From a virus: a stretch of 34,669 nt of DNA. Where the stretch lies: the IMG/VR virus record IMGVR_UViG_3300001473_000068, positions 1 through 34,669 of that record; one strand, written 5' to 3'. Shown one piece after another: positions 15,652 through 34,669 of this stretch (position 1 is the first letter of the stretch; every line of letters begins with the position of its first letter). A model generated the notes under the pieces. That model made no database searches and was not told the origin of the DNA. It saw only the letters and a list, made by a program, of their open reading frames with translations. A program made the translations under genes and the position numbers.

Positions 15652-17876
15652 CACAATTCTCCTTCTTGGACCGTCTCGACGCCAATCGGTGAGCCGTTTT
15701 CATCCTTGATCACACGTTTCGGCGCGGTGAGCGCCTGCGCCATCATCGCCATGAACTGAGCCTGCATCTCGCGTGATTCCCGAAGCTCTTCAATCAGCGC
15801 CTTTGTCTGGTCTTGGTCCGATTTGCTGTCCCCGCCCTTTTGGCCTTCCTTGGCCGGGGCCTTCTGCGTCTGGATCTTGATCCGTTCCATTTCCATCTGC
15901 TTGTCGAGCTTTTCACGCTCCAGCGCCACTTTGCTCTGCTCGGTCTGGCTCTTGATGTCGATCTCTTTGGCTTTAAGGGCAGTGTCAGCTTTCGATCGTT
16001 CGGTTTCTGCCTTCAATTTCTCCATCTCTGGATTTGGCTTCGGCTGCCCGGCGACCTGCTTCATTTGGTCGGCAAACTCATCAATCGACGCTTCCAACGG
16101 ACGGCCTGCCCGGAAAGGAGCGATGGCAAATTTCAGAACCTCTGCCGCAAATGGCGCTGCCTGTGGCTGTTGCTCAACCAGCGGGCCAAGCTGCGCGATG
16201 GTCGTTGCGAGCGCACCCAAGAATTCAGTGACGCTTTTCTTGGCCTTTTCCTCGTCCGGCTGAATGGTTGAATCGGTCTCGATCTCCAATACAAACGGCC
16301 GCATGCGTTCGTTTTTGATAAACTCGAACACCTGTTCAAGCGTCACGGTTTGCTTGAGCTTTTGAACCTGCGCCTCTGCCTGCTGCACCATCTGTTGGGC
16401 TTTTTGCATGGCCTGCGGGTTGCCCTGCAGTTGCGCCATGGCCTGCGGGTCGGATTGTACCTGCTGTGCCGCCTGCGCAATGCGCGACTCGATCTGCTGG
16501 ATTTGCTCCTGAATCTTGGCCTGTGGTGGCGCTTCCTCGTATTGGCTCATGGCCATGATGGTTTGCGGATCGAAGTTCTCCGCGATGATCTCGCCGGCCA
16601 GCCTCGTGACATCCCGCGCCAGCCTGACAAGTTCCTCCTGCCTGTCCTTGACCCTGATCGAGCCGTACTGGCTCTTGAGTTCTTGCGCGCCAAGCGTTTC
16701 ATTCGGGTCCGTCGCACCACGCATGATGTCGGACAGGCCGGTGATCTGGTACACGTCGTCAATCAGTTGCTTGCGCAGCGCGATAAGCTGGACAATGACT
16801 TCCGCGACTTCGCGAACCGGTAGCCAGACGATGCTATCCTTGAGAGCCGCGCCGCCCAGAACCGCCGTATTCGGCACCGGGATCATGATCGCATTGTTGT
16901 CAGTCTTTTTCAGCGCCGCCTCAAGAGCATCACTCAGTTCCTCGACGCCAGCCGAATAAAAACCCTTCATGCGCAGCGCCTCAGCCAGAGCCGATATGCG
17001 CGCGGTCAGTTCGTTGATTTCCTCAACCTGATCCTTGTAGTAGACGAAATCAGGAACAGGCTTGAGTGTGGACCGCTCCAGAGTGCCATAAGCTGGCCGT
17101 GGGCAGGGAAAGAAGCCATCCAGCGACAGGAACGGCTCTTGAATGTCAAGCACGTCTTCCATGCCCGGCGATACCCACACGACAACGCCCTGAGCTTTGG
17201 ACCAGATTTCCCACACTGGCGCTTTCTGCACCGTCATGCGGTCGTCCTGATCGTTATCCTTGTCTTTTTTGTCGGTGAAGGTGGCCTGTAGCCATGCATC
17301 CCCAAACCTGTCCAGACCCTTCTTGCGCGTCAACCAGGAGCGGCGCGCTACCCATCCAACCTCTTTCCACTTGCGGGCGACTTCATGAGCGAAGTCCTTA
17401 CGGTCGATATGGTCGAAACAAACCGCTTCGCCTGCGCTGTCCTGCTTGTACCTGAGCCAGACCACACCGCGTGCGTTCGTCGCCAGATCATCCCGGACCA
17501 GTTTCATTGTCGCGTCGATGTCTTCGCGGTCGAATGACGTGGTGAGCGTGCGTTCCAGTATCTCGGAAGCGTGGCGGTTCAATTCCTTTCGATCCTTGAA
17601 CCGACTGGCGACGACAGGGACAGGCGGGCGGGAATAAATCGCTGGTTTCAATACCTCAAGATTGGCCCAGAAGATTTGAAACTCGCGTTCACCGCCCGTG
17701 TTTGCGCTCTTTTCCAGATCCGCATAAAGCTTATCGATCCGGTCACAGCTATCATTGTATTTCGCAAAGGCGGTTTCATACGATTTGATATCGTCCAGCC
17801 ATGTCTTGGCCGCGCGCATGTCTCCATACGGATCTTCTTGCTGGTCCCCTGTCGCCAAGCCTGTTTCATCATTCAT
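15651..17876 (-). CDS. Portal protein (P22-like)
   Basis: A 741-residue protein, within the usual size of P22-type portals. Typical stretches are visible: 'REFQIFWANLEVLKPAIYSR' (N-terminal wing), 'AVCFDHIDRKDFAHEVARKW', 'FPCPRPAYGTLERSTLKPVP' then 'DFVYYKDQVEEINELT', and 'QITGLSDIMRGATDPNETLG' followed by 'AQELKSQYGSIRVKDRQEEL'. The C-terminus is a long Gln/Lys/Glu-rich coiled coil (residues about 470-700), matching the barrel region of podovirus portals. It forms the dodecameric vertex ring for DNA entry and exit. The start overlaps the TerL stop (ATGA). Confidence 0.85.
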   Translation of the reverse strand: MNDETGLATGDQQEDPYGDMRAAKTWLDDIKSYETAFAKYNDSCDRIDKLYADLEKSANTGGEREFQIFWANLEVLKPAIYSRPPVPVVASRFKDRKELNRHASEILERTLTTSFDREDIDATMKLVRDDLATNARGVVWLRYKQDSAGEAVCFDHIDRKDFAHEVARKWKEVGWVARRSWLTRKKGLDRFGDAWLQATFTDKKDKDNDQDDRMTVQKAPVWEIWSKAQGVVVWVSPGMEDVLDIQEPFLSLDGFFPCPRPAYGTLERSTLKPVPDFVYYKDQVEEINELTARISALAEALRMKGFYSAGVEELSDALEAALKKTDNNAIMIPVPNTAVLGGAALKDSIVWLPVREVAEVIVQLIALRKQLIDDVYQITGLSDIMRGATDPNETLGAQELKSQYGSIRVKDRQEELVRLARDVTRLAGEIIAENFDPQTIMAMSQYEEAPPQAKIQEQIQQIESRIAQAAQQVQSDPQAMAQLQGNPQAMQKAQQMVQQAEAQVQKLKQTVTLEQVFEFIKNERMRPFVLEIETDSTIQPDEEKAKKSVTEFLGALATTIAQLGPLVEQQPQAAPFAAEVLKFAIAPFRAGRPLEASIDEFADQMKQVAGQPKPNPEMEKLKAETERSKADTALKAKEIDIKSQTEQSKVALEREKLDKQMEMERIKIQTQKAPAKEGQKGGDSKSDQDQTKALIEELRESREMQAQFMAMMAQALTAPKRVIKDENGSPIGVETVQEGEL

Positions 17877-19267
17877 AGCTGAATTCTCGTTTTACTGGCT
17901 GGCTCTGGCGGGCCTTCAAGGACAACTGCCCCAATGGGCTGTGCGGGCTCTGGCGTTGGTTCAGGCTTGGCCGGGATAATTCCGCAGTTCACCGCAAACT
18001 CTCCGAAGGCGTCGGCCCCGTGGCTGTTCTCATCGTGGAGCGGCGTTGTGTAGGTCTGCATGCTGTCGTTCCACTTGCGCGAAAAGCGCCGCAGCCGTGT
18101 CAATCCGACCTGCACCCGGCCCGTGTTGTTGAAGTGCACGATCGGTAGAAGCTTCCTGACGGCGTTGATCCTGTCAGATGGGTTTGCAGCCACGCCGATG
18201 CGCAAAGGCTTCACACCAAAGCCCATGAGCGTGAGAGAGCGTTGTTTCGCGCCCTGCCCCCACTCTCTGACCTTGATGTCATGCGGAACAAAGTGATCGC
18301 CATAGAGATATGGTTCTGTGCGCCCGATCTCGATGAGTTGCGCCGCCGCTTCCATGGTGTCCGGGTTCAACTCCGGCAACGCCTGCCTTACGATCTGCTC
18401 CGCGCCTTCGTTGCTGACTTCGTAATAATCGATTGCAAAGACCTGCCGTCCATTCTCCTGCAAAAACCAGATGGCTGTGTAATCGTCCACCCCCAGATCC
18501 CAAGCCGTGACGACTGGCAGACGCGGATTGTATGGGAAGTGCCCAATGCGCCCTGCTTTCTCCGCTGCATGGATCAGCTTGGCGTAATAGGCTCCCTCGG
18601 TAATGATTTCATAGCCGCCGCCCCAGACATGCTCTGCCTGTTCGGGATCTGCGGTGTAGTCATCGTCCTTCTCCTGCTCGAGAATGGCAGGGAAGAATGG
18701 ATTATCGTTCCAGTTGACCTCTATGTGTGTTGAGTTGGCACGCTTGAAGCCACCGCGAAAGAATTTGTCCACCGCGTCACTGTCATGGCGTGGGTTCCAA
18801 CTGAACCAAAGCTCTGAATCTTCCTTACGAATGGTTGGACGCAAGAGCTTGAGCGAGTGAGCCGATAGCGTTTGTGCTTCCTCAACCCATGCGATGTCGA
18901 AACCCTCAAGCGACTTGATGTTCTCTGCGTTGTAGGACTGCATGCCCTTGAAAATAATGAGGCTGCCGTTCTGGCCGCGTATCTCACCGTCCAGGACGTC
19001 GAAGAAATATCCCAGCCCCATTTTCTGGATCTTGTCGACCAGCAGTTGTCGGACCGAATCCTTGATTGAGTTCTGTACCTCGCGAATGCATGCGGCTCGT
19101 GTCTGGCTGGTAAAGCACTGGACAATGAGCATTTCTGCGAAGAAGTGTGACTTGCCCCCGCCGCGCCCGCCGTATGCGCCCTTGTACCTGCATGGCTGCC
19201 ACAAAGGCTTAAACTTGATGGGCGCTTGAATGCGGACCGTATCAGCGCTTGGGGCCAACGAATTCAA
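17873..19267 (-). CDS. terL: Terminase large subunit
   Basis: A 464-residue packaging motor. The ATPase domain shows Walker A 'GGRGGGKS' at about residues 33-40 and Walker B 'IAWVEEA' at about 125-131. The RNase-H-like nuclease begins at 'VVTAWDLGVDDYTAIWFLQ' with Asp257 as the first metal ligand. The pattern is of the Terminase_3 (PBSX-like) group. The start is a TTG at 19267 after AAGG, inside the end of the small-subunit gene (26-base overlap). The enzyme cuts concatemeric DNA and pumps it through the portal encoded next. Confidence 0.9.
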   Translation of the reverse strand: MNSLAPSADTVRIQAPIKFKPLWQPCRYKGAYGGRGGGKSHFFAEMLIVQCFTSQTRAACIREVQNSIKDSVRQLLVDKIQKMGLGYFFDVLDGEIRGQNGSLIIFKGMQSYNAENIKSLEGFDIAWVEEAQTLSAHSLKLLRPTIRKEDSELWFSWNPRHDSDAVDKFFRGGFKRANSTHIEVNWNDNPFFPAILEQEKDDDYTADPEQAEHVWGGGYEIITEGAYYAKLIHAAEKAGRIGHFPYNPRLPVVTAWDLGVDDYTAIWFLQENGRQVFAIDYYEVSNEGAEQIVRQALPELNPDTMEAAAQLIEIGRTEPYLYGDHFVPHDIKVREWGQGAKQRSLTLMGFGVKPLRIGVAANPSDRINAVRKLLPIVHFNNTGRVQVGLTRLRRFSRKWNDSMQTYTTPLHDENSHGADAFGEFAVNCGIIPAKPEPTPEPAQPIGAVVLEGPPEPASKTRIQL

Positions 19268-19529
19268 TTTCTACCTTATGCTTGATCGCGTCACCGTCCG
19301 GCCCGGTAACCTGCATGGGAAGCACCTTGCCAAGCAATGAAATGAATGGGCCGGGGTTTTTGGTGGCCTGCTCTTTCAAGTAGCCGATAAGTCCCTCTTG
19401 CCCCCCGGCCTGTTCAGCAGCTTTGAGTATAGCGTCCTTGAGCAAGGCAGTTGTCTTGTTGGGTGAACCCTTTGGCCTGCCCGGTGAGACAGGCATCACC
19501 TTTTTTTTCCTTTGTATATTGTCTGCCAT
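19242..19529 (-). CDS. terS: Probable terminase small subunit
   Basis: A 95-residue protein with the common short phage pattern 'GRPKGSPNKTTALLKDAILK' followed by 'GYLKEQATKNPGPFISLLGK' and 'VLP'. It sits directly before the large subunit and overlaps it by 26 bases. The basic N-terminus and helix pair fit DNA recognition at the packaging site. Such proteins are often annotated DUF5681-like or TerS, so the role is supported by context more than by a strict motif. No promoter is obvious in the 90 bases before it on this strand, which overlap the toxin promoter running the other way. Confidence 0.75.
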   Translation of the reverse strand: MADNIQRKKKVMPVSPGRPKGSPNKTTALLKDAILKAAEQAGGQEGLIGYLKEQATKNPGPFISLLGKVLPMQVTGPDGDAIKHKVEIEFVGPKR

Positions 19530-19617: not shown

Positions 19618-19863
19618 ATGAAAGAGATCACCTTCCAATCAGCCGCATCCAAAGCCCTTCGCAAAATGCCAGCCAATACGGCAAAACGGATCATCGGCAA
19701 GATCAAGGCTTATGCTGCAGATCCCGCCAGTCAGGCCAATAACGTCAAAGCCATGAAGGGCACGGATGCAATCAGATTGCGGGTCGGTGATTGGCGCGTC
19801 ATCATGATGGATGGTGACGTTATCGATGTAATCAAGATTGCCTCTAGGGGCAGCGTGTACTGA
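19618..19863 (+). CDS. RelE/ParE-superfamily toxin (HigB-type order)
   Basis: An 81-residue protein of the usual toxin size. 'DAIRLRVGDWRVIMMDGDVI' at residues 50-69 is the RelE/ParE core strand pair, with Arg53, Arg55, Arg60 and Arg77 as candidate RNA-contacting basic residues. The toxin gene comes first and an XRE antitoxin second, as in HigBA. There is no ribosome site before ATG 19618 and the promoter spacing predicts a leaderless mRNA. The module lies on the opposite strand between TerS and the structured RNA region, as an independently expressed prophage module. RNA cleavage is expected from the family but not shown. Confidence 0.85.
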   Translation: MKEITFQSAASKALRKMPANTAKRIIGKIKAYAADPASQANNVKAMKGTDAIRLRVGDWRVIMMDGDVIDVIKIASRGSVY

Positions 19864-19873
19864 GGATGAGACC

Positions 19874-20203
19874 ATGAATGAAATGATCAGTATCCCGAAA
19901 GACGAATACGAGCGGCTGATGCGGGCTGCAGAAGACCTTGAGGACTTGGAAGCCATCAAGGCTTATCTGGCAGATCCGAAAGAGGGCATCCCGCTTGTCT
20001 TCATGGAGCGTATGATAGACGGCGAAAGCCCGCTTAGCGTTTATCGTGAGTGGCGCGGCTTCAATCAATCGTCTTTGTCAAAGGCTTCCGGTGTGAACCG
20101 AGTACAGATTGCCGATATTGAAGCAGGCAGAAGCAGTGGATCGATTGCAACGCTTAAAAAGCTAGCGGACGCACTCGACGTTTCCATTGACGATTTGGTG
20201 TGA
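19874..20203 (+). CDS. XRE-family antitoxin
   Basis: A 109-residue protein. Its N-terminal helices (residues 1-50, 'DEYERLMRAAEDLEDLEAIK') probably bind the toxin, and a helix-turn-helix at residues about 55-109 ('SLSKASGVNRVQIADIEAGR') binds DNA. ATG 19874 has a good ribosome site (GAGGATGAG) 10 bases after the toxin stop. It should neutralise the toxin and repress the promoter at 19575-19611. Confidence 0.85.
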   Translation: MNEMISIPKDEYERLMRAAEDLEDLEAIKAYLADPKEGIPLVFMERMIDGESPLSVYREWRGFNQSSLSKASGVNRVQIADIEAGRSSGSIATLKKLADALDVSIDDLV

Positions 20204-20225
20204 GAAACGGCCCCTCTCGGAGCCG
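20202..20225 (-). terminator. Terminator-like hairpin closing the leftward structured RNA
   Basis: Read leftward, CGGCTCC pairs with GGGGCCG (seven pairs, one G-U) around a GAGA tetraloop (GNRA type) and is followed by TTTCTC. Read rightward, the same stem has a C/A mismatch and no T run, so the element is asymmetric and favours leftward transcripts. It abuts the antitoxin stop. Confidence 0.5.
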
Positions 20226-21312
20226 CTGTCCAAAGGCACGTAGCCTATGAGTGGATTAAATTCCGGTTGTGTCCTTTGATTCGCACCGGCTGCAAACCTT
20301 GTAACGCTTGTGACACGAAGCTTCCCGGCCTGTCAGGGCTCTGGTTACGGGGCGGGTTCAAGCAAGCCCGATGAACGGGATACTTCACTTTTCTTTCAAT
20401 GTGACTGGCGATCTGTAAAGATTTCGCCGATTTCTTTACAGGTCGAATATCTCGTCATGCTCCCGCCATTTCTGACAGGTGGGGCAATCAAATTCAAAAC
20501 CCAAACCTTTTGAGAAAGAACAAATCCTGACCGCGCGAACACCGATGAATGAACTTATCTTTCAACAGCACCCCGATTGGGTTGCGCCAGTCCAGCGCAG
20601 CGTGAATGAGGACCTTTCGAAACGACCATTTCCTCATCCGTCTTACCCTCTATATGATCCATGGCGGGCCGGGCGCTGATCTCCGGCTTCGAATTCACCA
20701 CTTGTTTAGTCCCACACGGAGCCGTGACAATCACGGGACAACAGGTTGTTCATGCCTGTCCGGGCCTTCTACACAAGGGGCACGAAGCTTACGTGCTTCC
20801 GCCATGGATTACGGTGCCCTGTTGGGCTGTTGAATGGAGCGGACTGGGGGAATTGAACCCCTGCGGCAGCTACCCCGCCGGCCCTACGCCGTCTCTCAAC
20901 TGAATGAGAGTGCCTATCGTTGCAGGCTGGTTAGGCCCGCTATTGTCGGCATGGCGACCGCGAAACTGTGTCCACTGGACCAACAGCAACTACAATCTCG
21001 TGTCTTTCCTCTCTCTACTCTTTGCCAGTATTATCTGGCTGAATGAAGCGAGGGCCTTCCACCCTCTCGGTTACCCTATCCGGGCGCGCCCGGCGTTTCG
21101 CACTGAGTTCGGGGCTTTCGGGTAACTCCCCCCTTGTATTTCGTGCCGGTCTCTCCCGGCTGTCGCGTCCATTCCTCAGACGTTGCATCCATTGCTTCGA
21201 CCAATGGCAGCCCTACTAAGGGGCCTCCAGCGCTACGGCTTTCTGGTTTTCACCGCTCGCAATCAACAGCCCCGTTCGCTGGGAATCATGTTGCCGGAGT
21301 TACCCGGCGAAT
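20226..21312 (-). ncRNA. Candidate large structured non-coding RNA (about 1.1 kb)
   Basis: No convincing gene exists in this stretch; frames are short and lack recognisable protein features or ribosome sites. It is instead packed with inverted repeats. Examples (plus-strand positions): GCCGG/CCGGC 21293-21308 and 21145-21160; CCATTG/CAATGG 21189-21207; GTTACCC/GGGTAAC 21070-21126 enclosing CCGGGCGCGCCCGG at 21080-21093; GAGGG/CCCTC 21050-21066; GCCAG/CTGGC 21024-21039; GTCCC/GGGAC 20709-20739; CTGTAAAGA/TCTTTACAG 20413-20441. A tRNA-like unit lies inside (20835-20940). The leftward orientation is favoured by the GNRA-looped terminator at its end and the tRNA-like T-loop. Size, phage context and embedded tRNA-like unit recall GOLLD and ROOL RNAs, but no sequence match is claimed. 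Confidence 0.6.
20835..20940 (-). ncRNA. tRNA-like element with T-arm and encoded CCA
   Basis: Read leftward from 20940, GCGGGCC can pair with AGTCCGC (six of seven pairs, one G-T) to form an acceptor stem followed by T and CCA. Inside are hairpins GCCT/AGGC, CTCTC/GAGAG (loop ATTCAGTT), CGGC/GCCG and GCGG/CCGC, then a near-perfect T-arm GGGG-TTCAATT-CCCC with the canonical TTC-A loop. Total length is 106 nt, far above a normal tRNA, with one hairpin too many and no convincing D-loop or anticodon (a possible TCA lies in the CTCTC loop). It is best called tRNA-like. Confidence 0.5.
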
Positions 21313-21882
21313 TCATTGTGGAGCCTGTTGACTCCGCCTGCTCTCGCGAACTTCTGGCGTAACAATTGGCTTTGCGCCCGGTGCCATCCAGTAAAGCTGA
21401 TTCGGTTGAACAGAAATCTTCGATTTTAACTGATTTGCATGCATTTTCCGGTCAAAATCGGCCATTGTCAAGTTCGGTGCGTGAACATTGTTCAGTTTTT
21501 CCGCAATCTGTGAACATATTTTCCGCGTCACGCGGTAGAGTGTCCGCACCGAATAGTGGTTTTCGCGGGCAAAGCGGCCCAATGAGCGGCGTTTGTGCTT
21601 CTTGGCATAGGACCATCCATAAACCACGTGCCGGTCAGCCTCGCTTAGATATGAATTGATCCAGCCCCATGTTTCTTCCATGCGCGCGATTGCAGATCGA
21701 TCAATATTGCGCCGGTACTTCGGTTTGTTCGATCCGTATGCCTCTATCTGGCGGCGGACCGGCTCCGGCATGTTGTTGCCGTATATCTGCGGCCCCTTAA
21801 CTGGCGGAAGGCGCAAACAAGTCTCAGCGGCTTCGAGTATACGAAGCTCCACCTGTTTGGCTGTCCATGCTTGGTAGGTCAC
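21313..21882 (-). CDS. DUF6362-family protein
   Basis: A 189-residue protein with a GTG start. The central region 'RMEETWGWINSYLSEADRHV' followed by 'VYGWSYAKKHKRRSLGRFAR' and 'ENHYSVRTLYRVTRKICSQI' is the DUF6362 pattern, with a helix-turn-helix-like end. This family is common in alphaproteobacterial phages near the early-to-late junction, and a DNA-binding regulator (possibly a late-gene activator) is plausible. Here it is the last protein gene before the structured RNA and the packaging genes, which fits such a role, though no function is established. Confidence 0.65.
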   Translation of the reverse strand: MTYQAWTAKQVELRILEAAETCLRLPPVKGPQIYGNNMPEPVRRQIEAYGSNKPKYRRNIDRSAIARMEETWGWINSYLSEADRHVVYGWSYAKKHKRRSLGRFARENHYSVRTLYRVTRKICSQIAEKLNNVHAPNLTMADFDRKMHANQLKSKISVQPNQLYWMAPGAKPIVTPEVRESRRSQQAPQ

Positions 21883-33472: not shown

Positions 33473-33687
33473 CCAATCGCCCGACATTCACCAAAGCTGA
33501 ACTGCGCAGAGCCGCTGATGTAGCTCTTGCAAAGGGCGTTGGCGTTCGGCTGGAATCCGATCGATCGATAACGATTATCCCCGGTATTCAATCCATCCAC
33601 ATTGACAACACCGATCAGGATGGCGGTTCATCTCTCCGCAAATGGAGAGAGTCGCGCCGTGCAAATAAAGCTCATGGGCATTCATAA
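33469..33687 (+). CDS. Small pre-integrase protein, possible excision factor
   Basis: A 72-residue basic protein; ATG 33469 overlaps the upstream stop (ATGA). 'FTKAELRRAADVALAKGVGV' followed by 'RLESDRSITIIPGI' is a short helix-strand pattern very common immediately before integrase genes in alphaproteobacterial prophages. By position it could be a recombination directionality factor, but no winged-helix Xis motif is obvious. It overlaps the integrase start. Confidence 0.6.
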   Translation: MTNRPTFTKAELRRAADVALAKGVGVRLESDRSITIIPGIQSIHIDNTDQDGGSSLRKWRESRRANKAHGHS

Positions 33688-34669
33688 GGTCCGAAAGAAA
33701 CTCGCTGATGGATCCGTGCGCTTCTATTACTATGCGTGGCGTGGCGGGCCGCGGATCGATGCGGAGCCTCACACTGACGCCTTTGTCTCTGAATATGTCC
33801 GACTGACCCGAGATCGAGCCGACGCGCCCTATCAAGGCTGCATGGCTGAACTGGTCAGAGCCTATCTAGATTCCCCTGCCTATCTGAATTTGAAGCCGTC
33901 CACCCGGGAAGGCTACGACCTGGCTATCAAGGCAATCGAGACCGAATATTACGACATGCCATTGACCGCTCTGGCCGAACACGGCGCCCGCAGCGATTTC
34001 CTGCAATGGCGTGATGGCATCGCGAAGACGCATCCGCGCAAGGCCGATCTCTACATGGCTGTGCTGCGGCGCATACTGTCCTATGGCTATGATCGGGAAT
34101 TCATCGCTCGCCATCCGCTCGAGCGTGTCGAAAAGATCAGCGATGGCAGCCGGCGCGATGTCATTTGGAGCGACAGTGAAATCAAACGGTTCATGGACAC
34201 AGCATCCCAACCGCTTTGCGAGGCCATGACGCTTGCCCTATGGACCGGGCAACGCCAAGGTGACCTGTTGCGCCTCACCTGGTCGGCTTATGATGGGCGG
34301 GTGATAGCACTCAAGCAGGAGAAGACGGGCAAACAAGTCCGGATCAAGGTTTCCGCGGATCTGAAAGCCATGCTGGACAGAATGGAGCAGAAAGCCGTCA
34401 CCATTCTTACCAATCAGCGCGGCCGCCCATGGAAGTCCGGTTTCAAATCATCGTGGAGGAAGGCTGCGGCGAAAGCCGGCATCAATGATCGAACCTTCCA
34501 TGACCTTCGAGGAACATTCTGCACATGGGCCTATCGGGAAGGTGCTTCATTCAAGGAAATCGCGGAGGCATCGGGCCACAGCGAGATCGAAGCAGAGACC
34601 ATAATTCGCAAGCATTATCTGGTTGCAGAGGCCGTGATTGAGCGGATCGAAGGCAGAACAAAGCTGTAA
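33674..34669 (+). CDS. int: Tyrosine-recombinase integrase
   Basis: A 331-residue protein if ATG 33674 is used; an upstream ATG at 33602 would overlap the preceding gene more, and neither has a strong ribosome site. The N-terminal arm and core-binding domains (residues 1-160) precede the catalytic domain with Arg194 ('WTGQRQGD'), Lys217 or Lys220 ('KQEKTGKQV'), His276-x-x-Arg279 ('FHDLRGTF'), His302 ('SGHSEIE') and the nucleophile Tyr315 in 'IIRKHYL'. All active-site positions are present, so it should be functional. It ends the rightward operon at the window edge, so attP or attR should lie just beyond. Confidence 0.92.
   Translation: MGIHKVRKKLADGSVRFYYYAWRGGPRIDAEPHTDAFVSEYVRLTRDRADAPYQGCMAELVRAYLDSPAYLNLKPSTREGYDLAIKAIETEYYDMPLTALAEHGARSDFLQWRDGIAKTHPRKADLYMAVLRRILSYGYDREFIARHPLERVEKISDGSRRDVIWSDSEIKRFMDTASQPLCEAMTLALWTGQRQGDLLRLTWSAYDGRVIALKQEKTGKQVRIKVSADLKAMLDRMEQKAVTILTNQRGRPWKSGFKSSWRKAAAKAGINDRTFHDLRGTFCTWAYREGASFKEIAEASGHSEIEAETIIRKHYLVAEAVIERIEGRTKL

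Follow-up and report, generated by a model that had tools for sequence, protein, structure and literature searches.

A T-arm-like end and two conserved modules in a long structured RNA near the terminase genes of an IMG/VR phage

Related RNAs and the locus

GOLLD and ROOL are phage-encoded RNAs that occur near tRNAs and form an RNA nanocage. The linker regions of GOLLD hold tRNAs in some cases (PMC12286853), and the put RNA of HK022, ca. 70 nt in length with two stem-loops, acts in RNA-only antitermination at early promoters (PMC9378689). The RNA described here resembles GOLLD and ROOL in being a large phage RNA with kinship to tRNA arrays and a tRNA piece inside, but it has no sequence or covariance match to them and is made of small modules that are also found separately. 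Its likeness to HK022 put would lie in the proposed role alone, that of a phage leader RNA aiding early or late transcription; the GARAGA hairpin described below was not found in the HK022 region read. With bacterial tRNAs (RF00005), tRNA-Gly especially, it shares the T-loop TTCAATT, G53-C61, U73-CCA and the pairs G1-C72, C2-G71 and G3-C70. However, this tRNA-likeness is confined to the 3' quarter, without a D-arm, an anticodon arm, a conserved acceptor stem or a model match. The T-arm letters are also shared with tmRNA (RF00023), whereas the tag reading frame, acceptor and remaining molecule of tmRNA are missing.

The window analysed here is the whole of IMG/VR record IMGVR_UViG_3300001473_000068 (34,669 nt), a 34.7-kb phage with an integrase (33602-34669) at one end. 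A gap of 1109 bp (20204-21312) contains no ORF of at least 100 aa and includes the 106-nt element considered below (Table 1); none of its small ORFs reached a Pfam family at that family's own cut-off. Since one small reading frame in the gap resembles an ORF at another locus (L160), the untranslated RNA probably stops near 20560, although the gap without long ORFs continues to 20205. The RNA, a mosaic of modules 0.75-1.1 kb in total length, is flanked by a late-type gene (DUF6362) on one side and the terminase genes on the other. Its minimum free energy corresponded to a z of -2.8 on the minus strand and -2.6 on the opposite strand. On the RNA strand, two promoter-like sites were found against 1.1 expected, neither of them convincing, and a terminator search returned none. 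The RNA was absent at the corresponding place in close TerL relatives (L003-L006; 76-77%). The toxin-antitoxin pair is inserted against the late-gene direction. A link between DUF6362 and the RNA was considered and dropped, because DUF6362 relatives exist and yet L137 lacks the RNA. Matches of parts of the RNA to L182/L183, L156-L159 and L161 span long ORFs and were judged to be chance.

Two further observations concern tRNAs near such loci. The minus-strand sequence of window 20355-20280, CCGTAACCAGAGCCCTGACAGGCCGGGAAGCTTCG, is similar to the sequence just 5' of a tRNA-Met in another contig (L155:1501-1577). In L002 (4779-4856), an initiator-tRNA-like 3' part lies right behind a DUF6362 homologue and overlaps a short ORF.

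Table 1. Coordinates of the features of the window and of members of the second RNA family
Feature	Position	Strand	Remark
DUF6362 gene	21313-21882	-	Pfam PF19889, 39.7 bits; immediately upstream of RNA
Long structured untranslated RNA	20560-21312	-	extent estimated; from DUF6362 gene to terminase side
Module A: AGUAGG-hairpin-UGCAACGUCUGA..GGACGCGACAG-[GCCGG GAGAGA CCGGC]	21142-21217	-	covarying first helix
Module B hairpin: CCGACAAUA-GCGGGC[CUAACCA]GCCUGC-AACGAUAG	20914-20949	-	four-lineage conservation
Reported interval	20835-20940	-	106 nt; composite rather than conserved unit
T-arm-like hairpin GGGG-TTCAATT-CCCC	20847-20861	-	
CAGUCCGC-U-CCA	20835-20846	-	acceptor-3'-like strand, U73, CCA
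Small reading frame ending ...GFEFDCPTCQKWREHDEIFDL	20436-20561	-	resembles L160 ORF
ParE/RelE-type toxin and HTH antitoxin pair	19618-20203	+	between RNA and terminase genes
phrog_11043 gene	19242-19529	-	probable small terminase subunit, by position
Terminase large subunit	17873-19267	-	PF04466, 120 bits
Second family, L141	3823-3944		
Second family, L142	1581-1696		
Second family, L143	8824-8937		
Second family, L144	4557-4676		
Second family, L145	5553-5674		
Second family, L146	3653-3763		
Second family, L147	5928-6040		
Second family, L148	8672-8784		
Second family, L149	5341-5473		

The 106-nt interval and its tRNA-like end

The first-pass annotation described the interval as a tRNA-like element with a canonical T-arm, a T-CCA end and an acceptor stem closing around five hairpins. 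All of the reported letters were found on the minus strand, with T54 at 20857, U73 at 20838 and CCA at 20837-20835 in tRNA numbering. The six-pair closing stem and the five hairpins were likewise reproduced when a 107-nt piece was folded in isolation (-46.9 kcal/mol); this fold had a z of only -2.1, and 8 of 200 shuffles were equally good. The pairs of the six-of-seven acceptor stem exist in the isolated fold but are weak as evidence, and their pairing probability was 0-0.01 in fold contexts of at least 290 nt. Among random sequences matched for composition, 43% contained a 6/7 partner within the allowed offsets. Two equally good partners, GCGGGCC at 20940 and GUGGACA at 20975, are available, both leaving position 7-66 unpaired; the latter overlaps AGUGGAC (20976-20970), an alternative partner of the acceptor-3'-like strand. 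Given this frequency of random partners and the second partner at 20975, the acceptor pairing is nearly uninformative.

Models of known RNAs did not recognise the element. ARAGORN found neither tRNA nor tmRNA in the window, and Rfam covariance models, including RF00005, gave no gathering-level match. Below that level, Rfam returned a 15-nt fragment of the tmRNA T-loop at 12.9 bits, against a gathering threshold of 47. The element contains neither G18G19 nor a 7-nt anticodon loop, and the continuous acceptor/T stack of a tRNA is missing.

The 3' end is another matter of frequency. It has the TTCRANY loop and N73-CCA at the fixed spacing, with a mismatch at 49-65 of the stem. At this composition, chance alone would produce a T-arm with CCA at the exact tRNA offset 0.0075 times per window and 0.00025 times on the 1.1-kb strand. 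In 1.47 Mb of fetched DNA there were 28 other matches, most of them in tRNAs called by ARAGORN or Rfam and the rest belonging to tRNA-like elements not called by ARAGORN. Because the combination is rare by chance and its other matches are all tRNA or tRNA-like, the end very probably belongs to the tRNA type. The same figures weigh against a chance origin of the T-arm hairpin and UCCA, unrelated to tRNA, within a structured RNA rich in GC, whereas the expectation for a T-arm without the CCA condition (0.56 per window) speaks for that view; the relatives described in the next section also bear on it. The exact T-arm stretch had no match in IMG/VR. Three T-arm/U73-CCA ends were observed in the tRNA array of Microcystis phage Mwe-JY26 (L169: 1088, 1792 and 2746); they have 7/7 acceptor partners, span 72-92 nt, are unannotated and are missed by ARAGORN, and Rfam gives a tRNA-Sec match, below threshold, that overlaps the end at 1792.

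Cores of phage attachment sites are often copies of tRNA 3' ends. The phage might then carry, in its T-arm/CCA end, the 3' terminus of a host tRNA gene; an integrase is indeed present, but it lies 13 kb away at the record end. G002 is a Rhizobiaceae-group prophage host that is close by TerL; across 200 genomes from its family, the 27-nt stretch matched no tRNA end with up to 3 mismatches. An attachment site is thus largely refuted and hardly conceivable as an explanation.

Conserved modules of the long RNA

The 5' third of the interval belongs to a separate conserved hairpin, module B, which takes in the proposed 5' acceptor strand (20940-20934) together with the larger part of the proposed D-arm. 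A search of 398 family genomes of G002 identified a prophage copy (L150; 61 nt, 85% identity to the window), and an exact-pattern scan of IMG/VR added the lineages L184/L190 and L187. The shared core is GACAAUA-GCGGGC[CUARYCA]GCCUGC-AACGAUAG, and the four lineages are identical at 33 of 41 columns. The loop is variable and the 6-bp stem invariant; hence, there are no compensatory changes. In folds of at least 400 nt, the GCGGGC/GCCUGC hairpin formed with a probability of 0.98-0.99, and this local hairpin uses up the acceptor strand; folding in context thus favours module B over the tRNA-like fold. Both L184 (AGCC) and L187 (AGCG) disrupt the GCCU/AGGC pairs of the reported D-arm. No T-arm was present within 300 nt of module B in any of the three relatives, and the acceptor pairing is not conserved, since the module B hairpin takes its strand there. 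The first-pass annotation had given just such an outcome as one that would refute its proposal.

The proposal of an expanded phage tRNA with five arms was therefore rejected, because the acceptor strand and D-arm belong to module B. The element is not an expanded tRNA; it is composite, joining a conserved phage hairpin to a T-arm-like end inside a long structured RNA. A second proposal, a tRNA mimic within a larger RNA, held in part: the larger structured RNA and a tRNA-3'-half-like end are present, but a five-armed mimic is not. As for processing by RNase P, the CCA-adding enzyme or EF-Tu, the T-arm is the one feature that would point to it. A functional mimic would require an RNase P cut at 20940 and a CCA-ended 106-nt product engaging EF-Tu or a synthetase. 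The glycine-like letters (U73, G1-C72, C2-G71, G3-C70), the T-arm, U73-CCA, the six acceptor pairs and the stable isolated fold are consistent with such a product, as are the tRNA-like domains at the same position in another RNA family (L059, L141; see below). The non-conserved acceptor and D-arm pairings, the mismatches at 7-66 and 49-65, the missing G18G19 and 7-nt anticodon loop and the unmatched ARAGORN and Rfam tRNA models argue against it, making a functional mimic improbable.

The relatives of module B also provide points in favour of coincidence. They all lack the T-arm, and CGCUC (L150, L184) or CGCU (L187) follows close behind module B, so that the module may be the source of part of the 'CGCUCCA'. 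CGCU lies within 31-35 nt of AGCGGG in the three relatives, whereas the first CGCU after module B in the window is 100 nt off and falls in the acceptor strand of the T-arm. Either a T-arm-bearing insertion in this phage or a loss of the T-arm from the others could account for the difference in spacing. Set against the rarity of a T-arm with CCA at the exact offset, coincidence, which would leave the rest of the favoured reading unchanged, was considered unlikely.

The gene neighbourhoods of module B vary. In L184/L190, an antiterminator-like gene lies on one side and a short ORF and the large terminase gene on the other. This neighbour matched phrog_6386 'transcription antiterminator' weakly (E 1.3e-7), and its best match, phrog_23142, is of unknown function. 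In L150, module B adjoins an integrase and a DUF1441 gene, and the RNA ends in an intrinsic terminator. The L187 copy is on the strand opposite to the flanking lysis-region genes.

Module A lies ca. 200 nt upstream of the 106-nt element. Querying the gap against 398 genomes of the family of G002 revealed homologues of 21217-21143, and further homologues came from IMG/VR and a second genome sample (L151-L154, L162-L164 and L171-L174 in all). In nine sequences, the two arms of the first helix paired at 6.1 of 7 positions when both came from one sequence and at 4.0 when they came from different ones. The helix reads CCAUUG/CAAUGG in this phage and GCCGGG/CCCGGC or GAUGCC/GGCAUC elsewhere. A covariance model scored 81 bits in this phage and 69 bits in L171, which had been left out of training. 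Copies of module A lie between phage genes, in some phages far from the terminase; in L154 (1061-1846, minus), the module is in frame within a Mu gp35-like (FluMu_N) ORF right after gpT. Its last hairpin, GACAG-[GARAGA loop], recurs in gaps of CS01 (upstream of the terminase), P7641, Medea1 and mEp390; in Pokken it has tRNAs as neighbours, and in Mwe-JY26 it lies within the tRNA array. Taken one by one, these 20-nt matches are weak (E 0.1-6; 13-18 bits with the model). Module A matched no Rfam family at the loci scanned and is absent from Rfam 15. A search of the open literature, in which RNA-motif papers are thinly covered, found no description of module A or B.

The size of the RNA, its phage location and the modules common to tRNA-array RNAs could also indicate that the whole region is a giant ornate RNA, divergent but of the GOLLD/ROOL (nanocage) type, whose variable part would contain a degenerate tRNA. 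However, no match was obtained at the gathering or E <= 5 level, and modules A and B stand alone in short RNAs elsewhere. This affiliation is highly improbable.

A second RNA family and the proposed role

A phage RNA family of the form TTTGGAATG-N(90-110)-CATTCCAAAGCCA, often with GTGATTTGCG before and ATCGGGAAGGC...GCCTTCCCGA modules after, recurs among TerL relatives and is unrelated to the window RNA: no significant alignment to L059 or L050 was obtained, and homology was rejected. The two RNAs are alike in their position upstream of the terminase (in at least L050 and L059) and, in some members, in a tRNA-like T-arm and U73-CCA; they differ in that the T-arm of the second family sits on an uninterrupted extended stem. 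In L059/L144 and L141/L145, a class-II-like tRNA domain has a T-arm, U73-CCA and, in L059, the D-loop AGCGGTTTGAA, and its acceptor stem extends into a longer helix. The T-arm is degenerate in five other members, and both ARAGORN and Rfam miss the family. tRNA-like domains are thus real and decaying in other terminase-proximal RNAs, which supports, but does not prove, a remnant or co-opted T-arm in the present RNA.

The favoured reading, to which we assign a probability of roughly 0.55, is a structured RNA of leader type that belongs to the packaging region and encloses a remnant of a tRNA 3' half or a co-opted T-arm. The interval would be a slice through a long untranslated minus-strand RNA running from ca. 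21300 towards the terminase genes. This RNA is a mosaic of the covarying module A and the conserved hairpin of module B, modules common to other phages; the T-arm/CCA end would be a remnant or re-used piece of a tRNA 3' half that now forms a hairpin of the long RNA. A leader-type RNA of the packaging or late region could aid RNA polymerase or the transcript across the long untranslated stretch, by an antitermination- or stabilisation-like action. Such modules are located in tRNA arrays and between terminase genes and late regulators or antiterminators; judged from position only, they would most likely serve late transcription or protect the transcript. The opposite-strand toxin-antitoxin pair separates the RNA from the terminase genes and thus makes a simple leader uncertain.

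A false tRNA is thereby struck off and replaced by two conserved phage RNA modules without an Rfam match, one of them covarying, located where phages turn on packaging genes and within phage tRNA arrays. Being long and untranslated, those stretches are vulnerable to RNA decay and to termination by Rho. Should the modules act on transcription, they would represent a second type of RNA-based late control beside the known antitermination systems. More tentatively, phages might combine undescribed modules (A, B and the GARAGA hairpin) into long RNAs before packaging genes or in tRNA arrays, with built-in tRNA pieces that decay; such RNAs would have part of their origin in tRNA arrays and would serve late transcription or protect the transcript. 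In two other phages, a non-coding element of ca. 150 nt upstream of the terminase is 92% identical between them (approximately L064:3180-3330 and L070:3290-3440).
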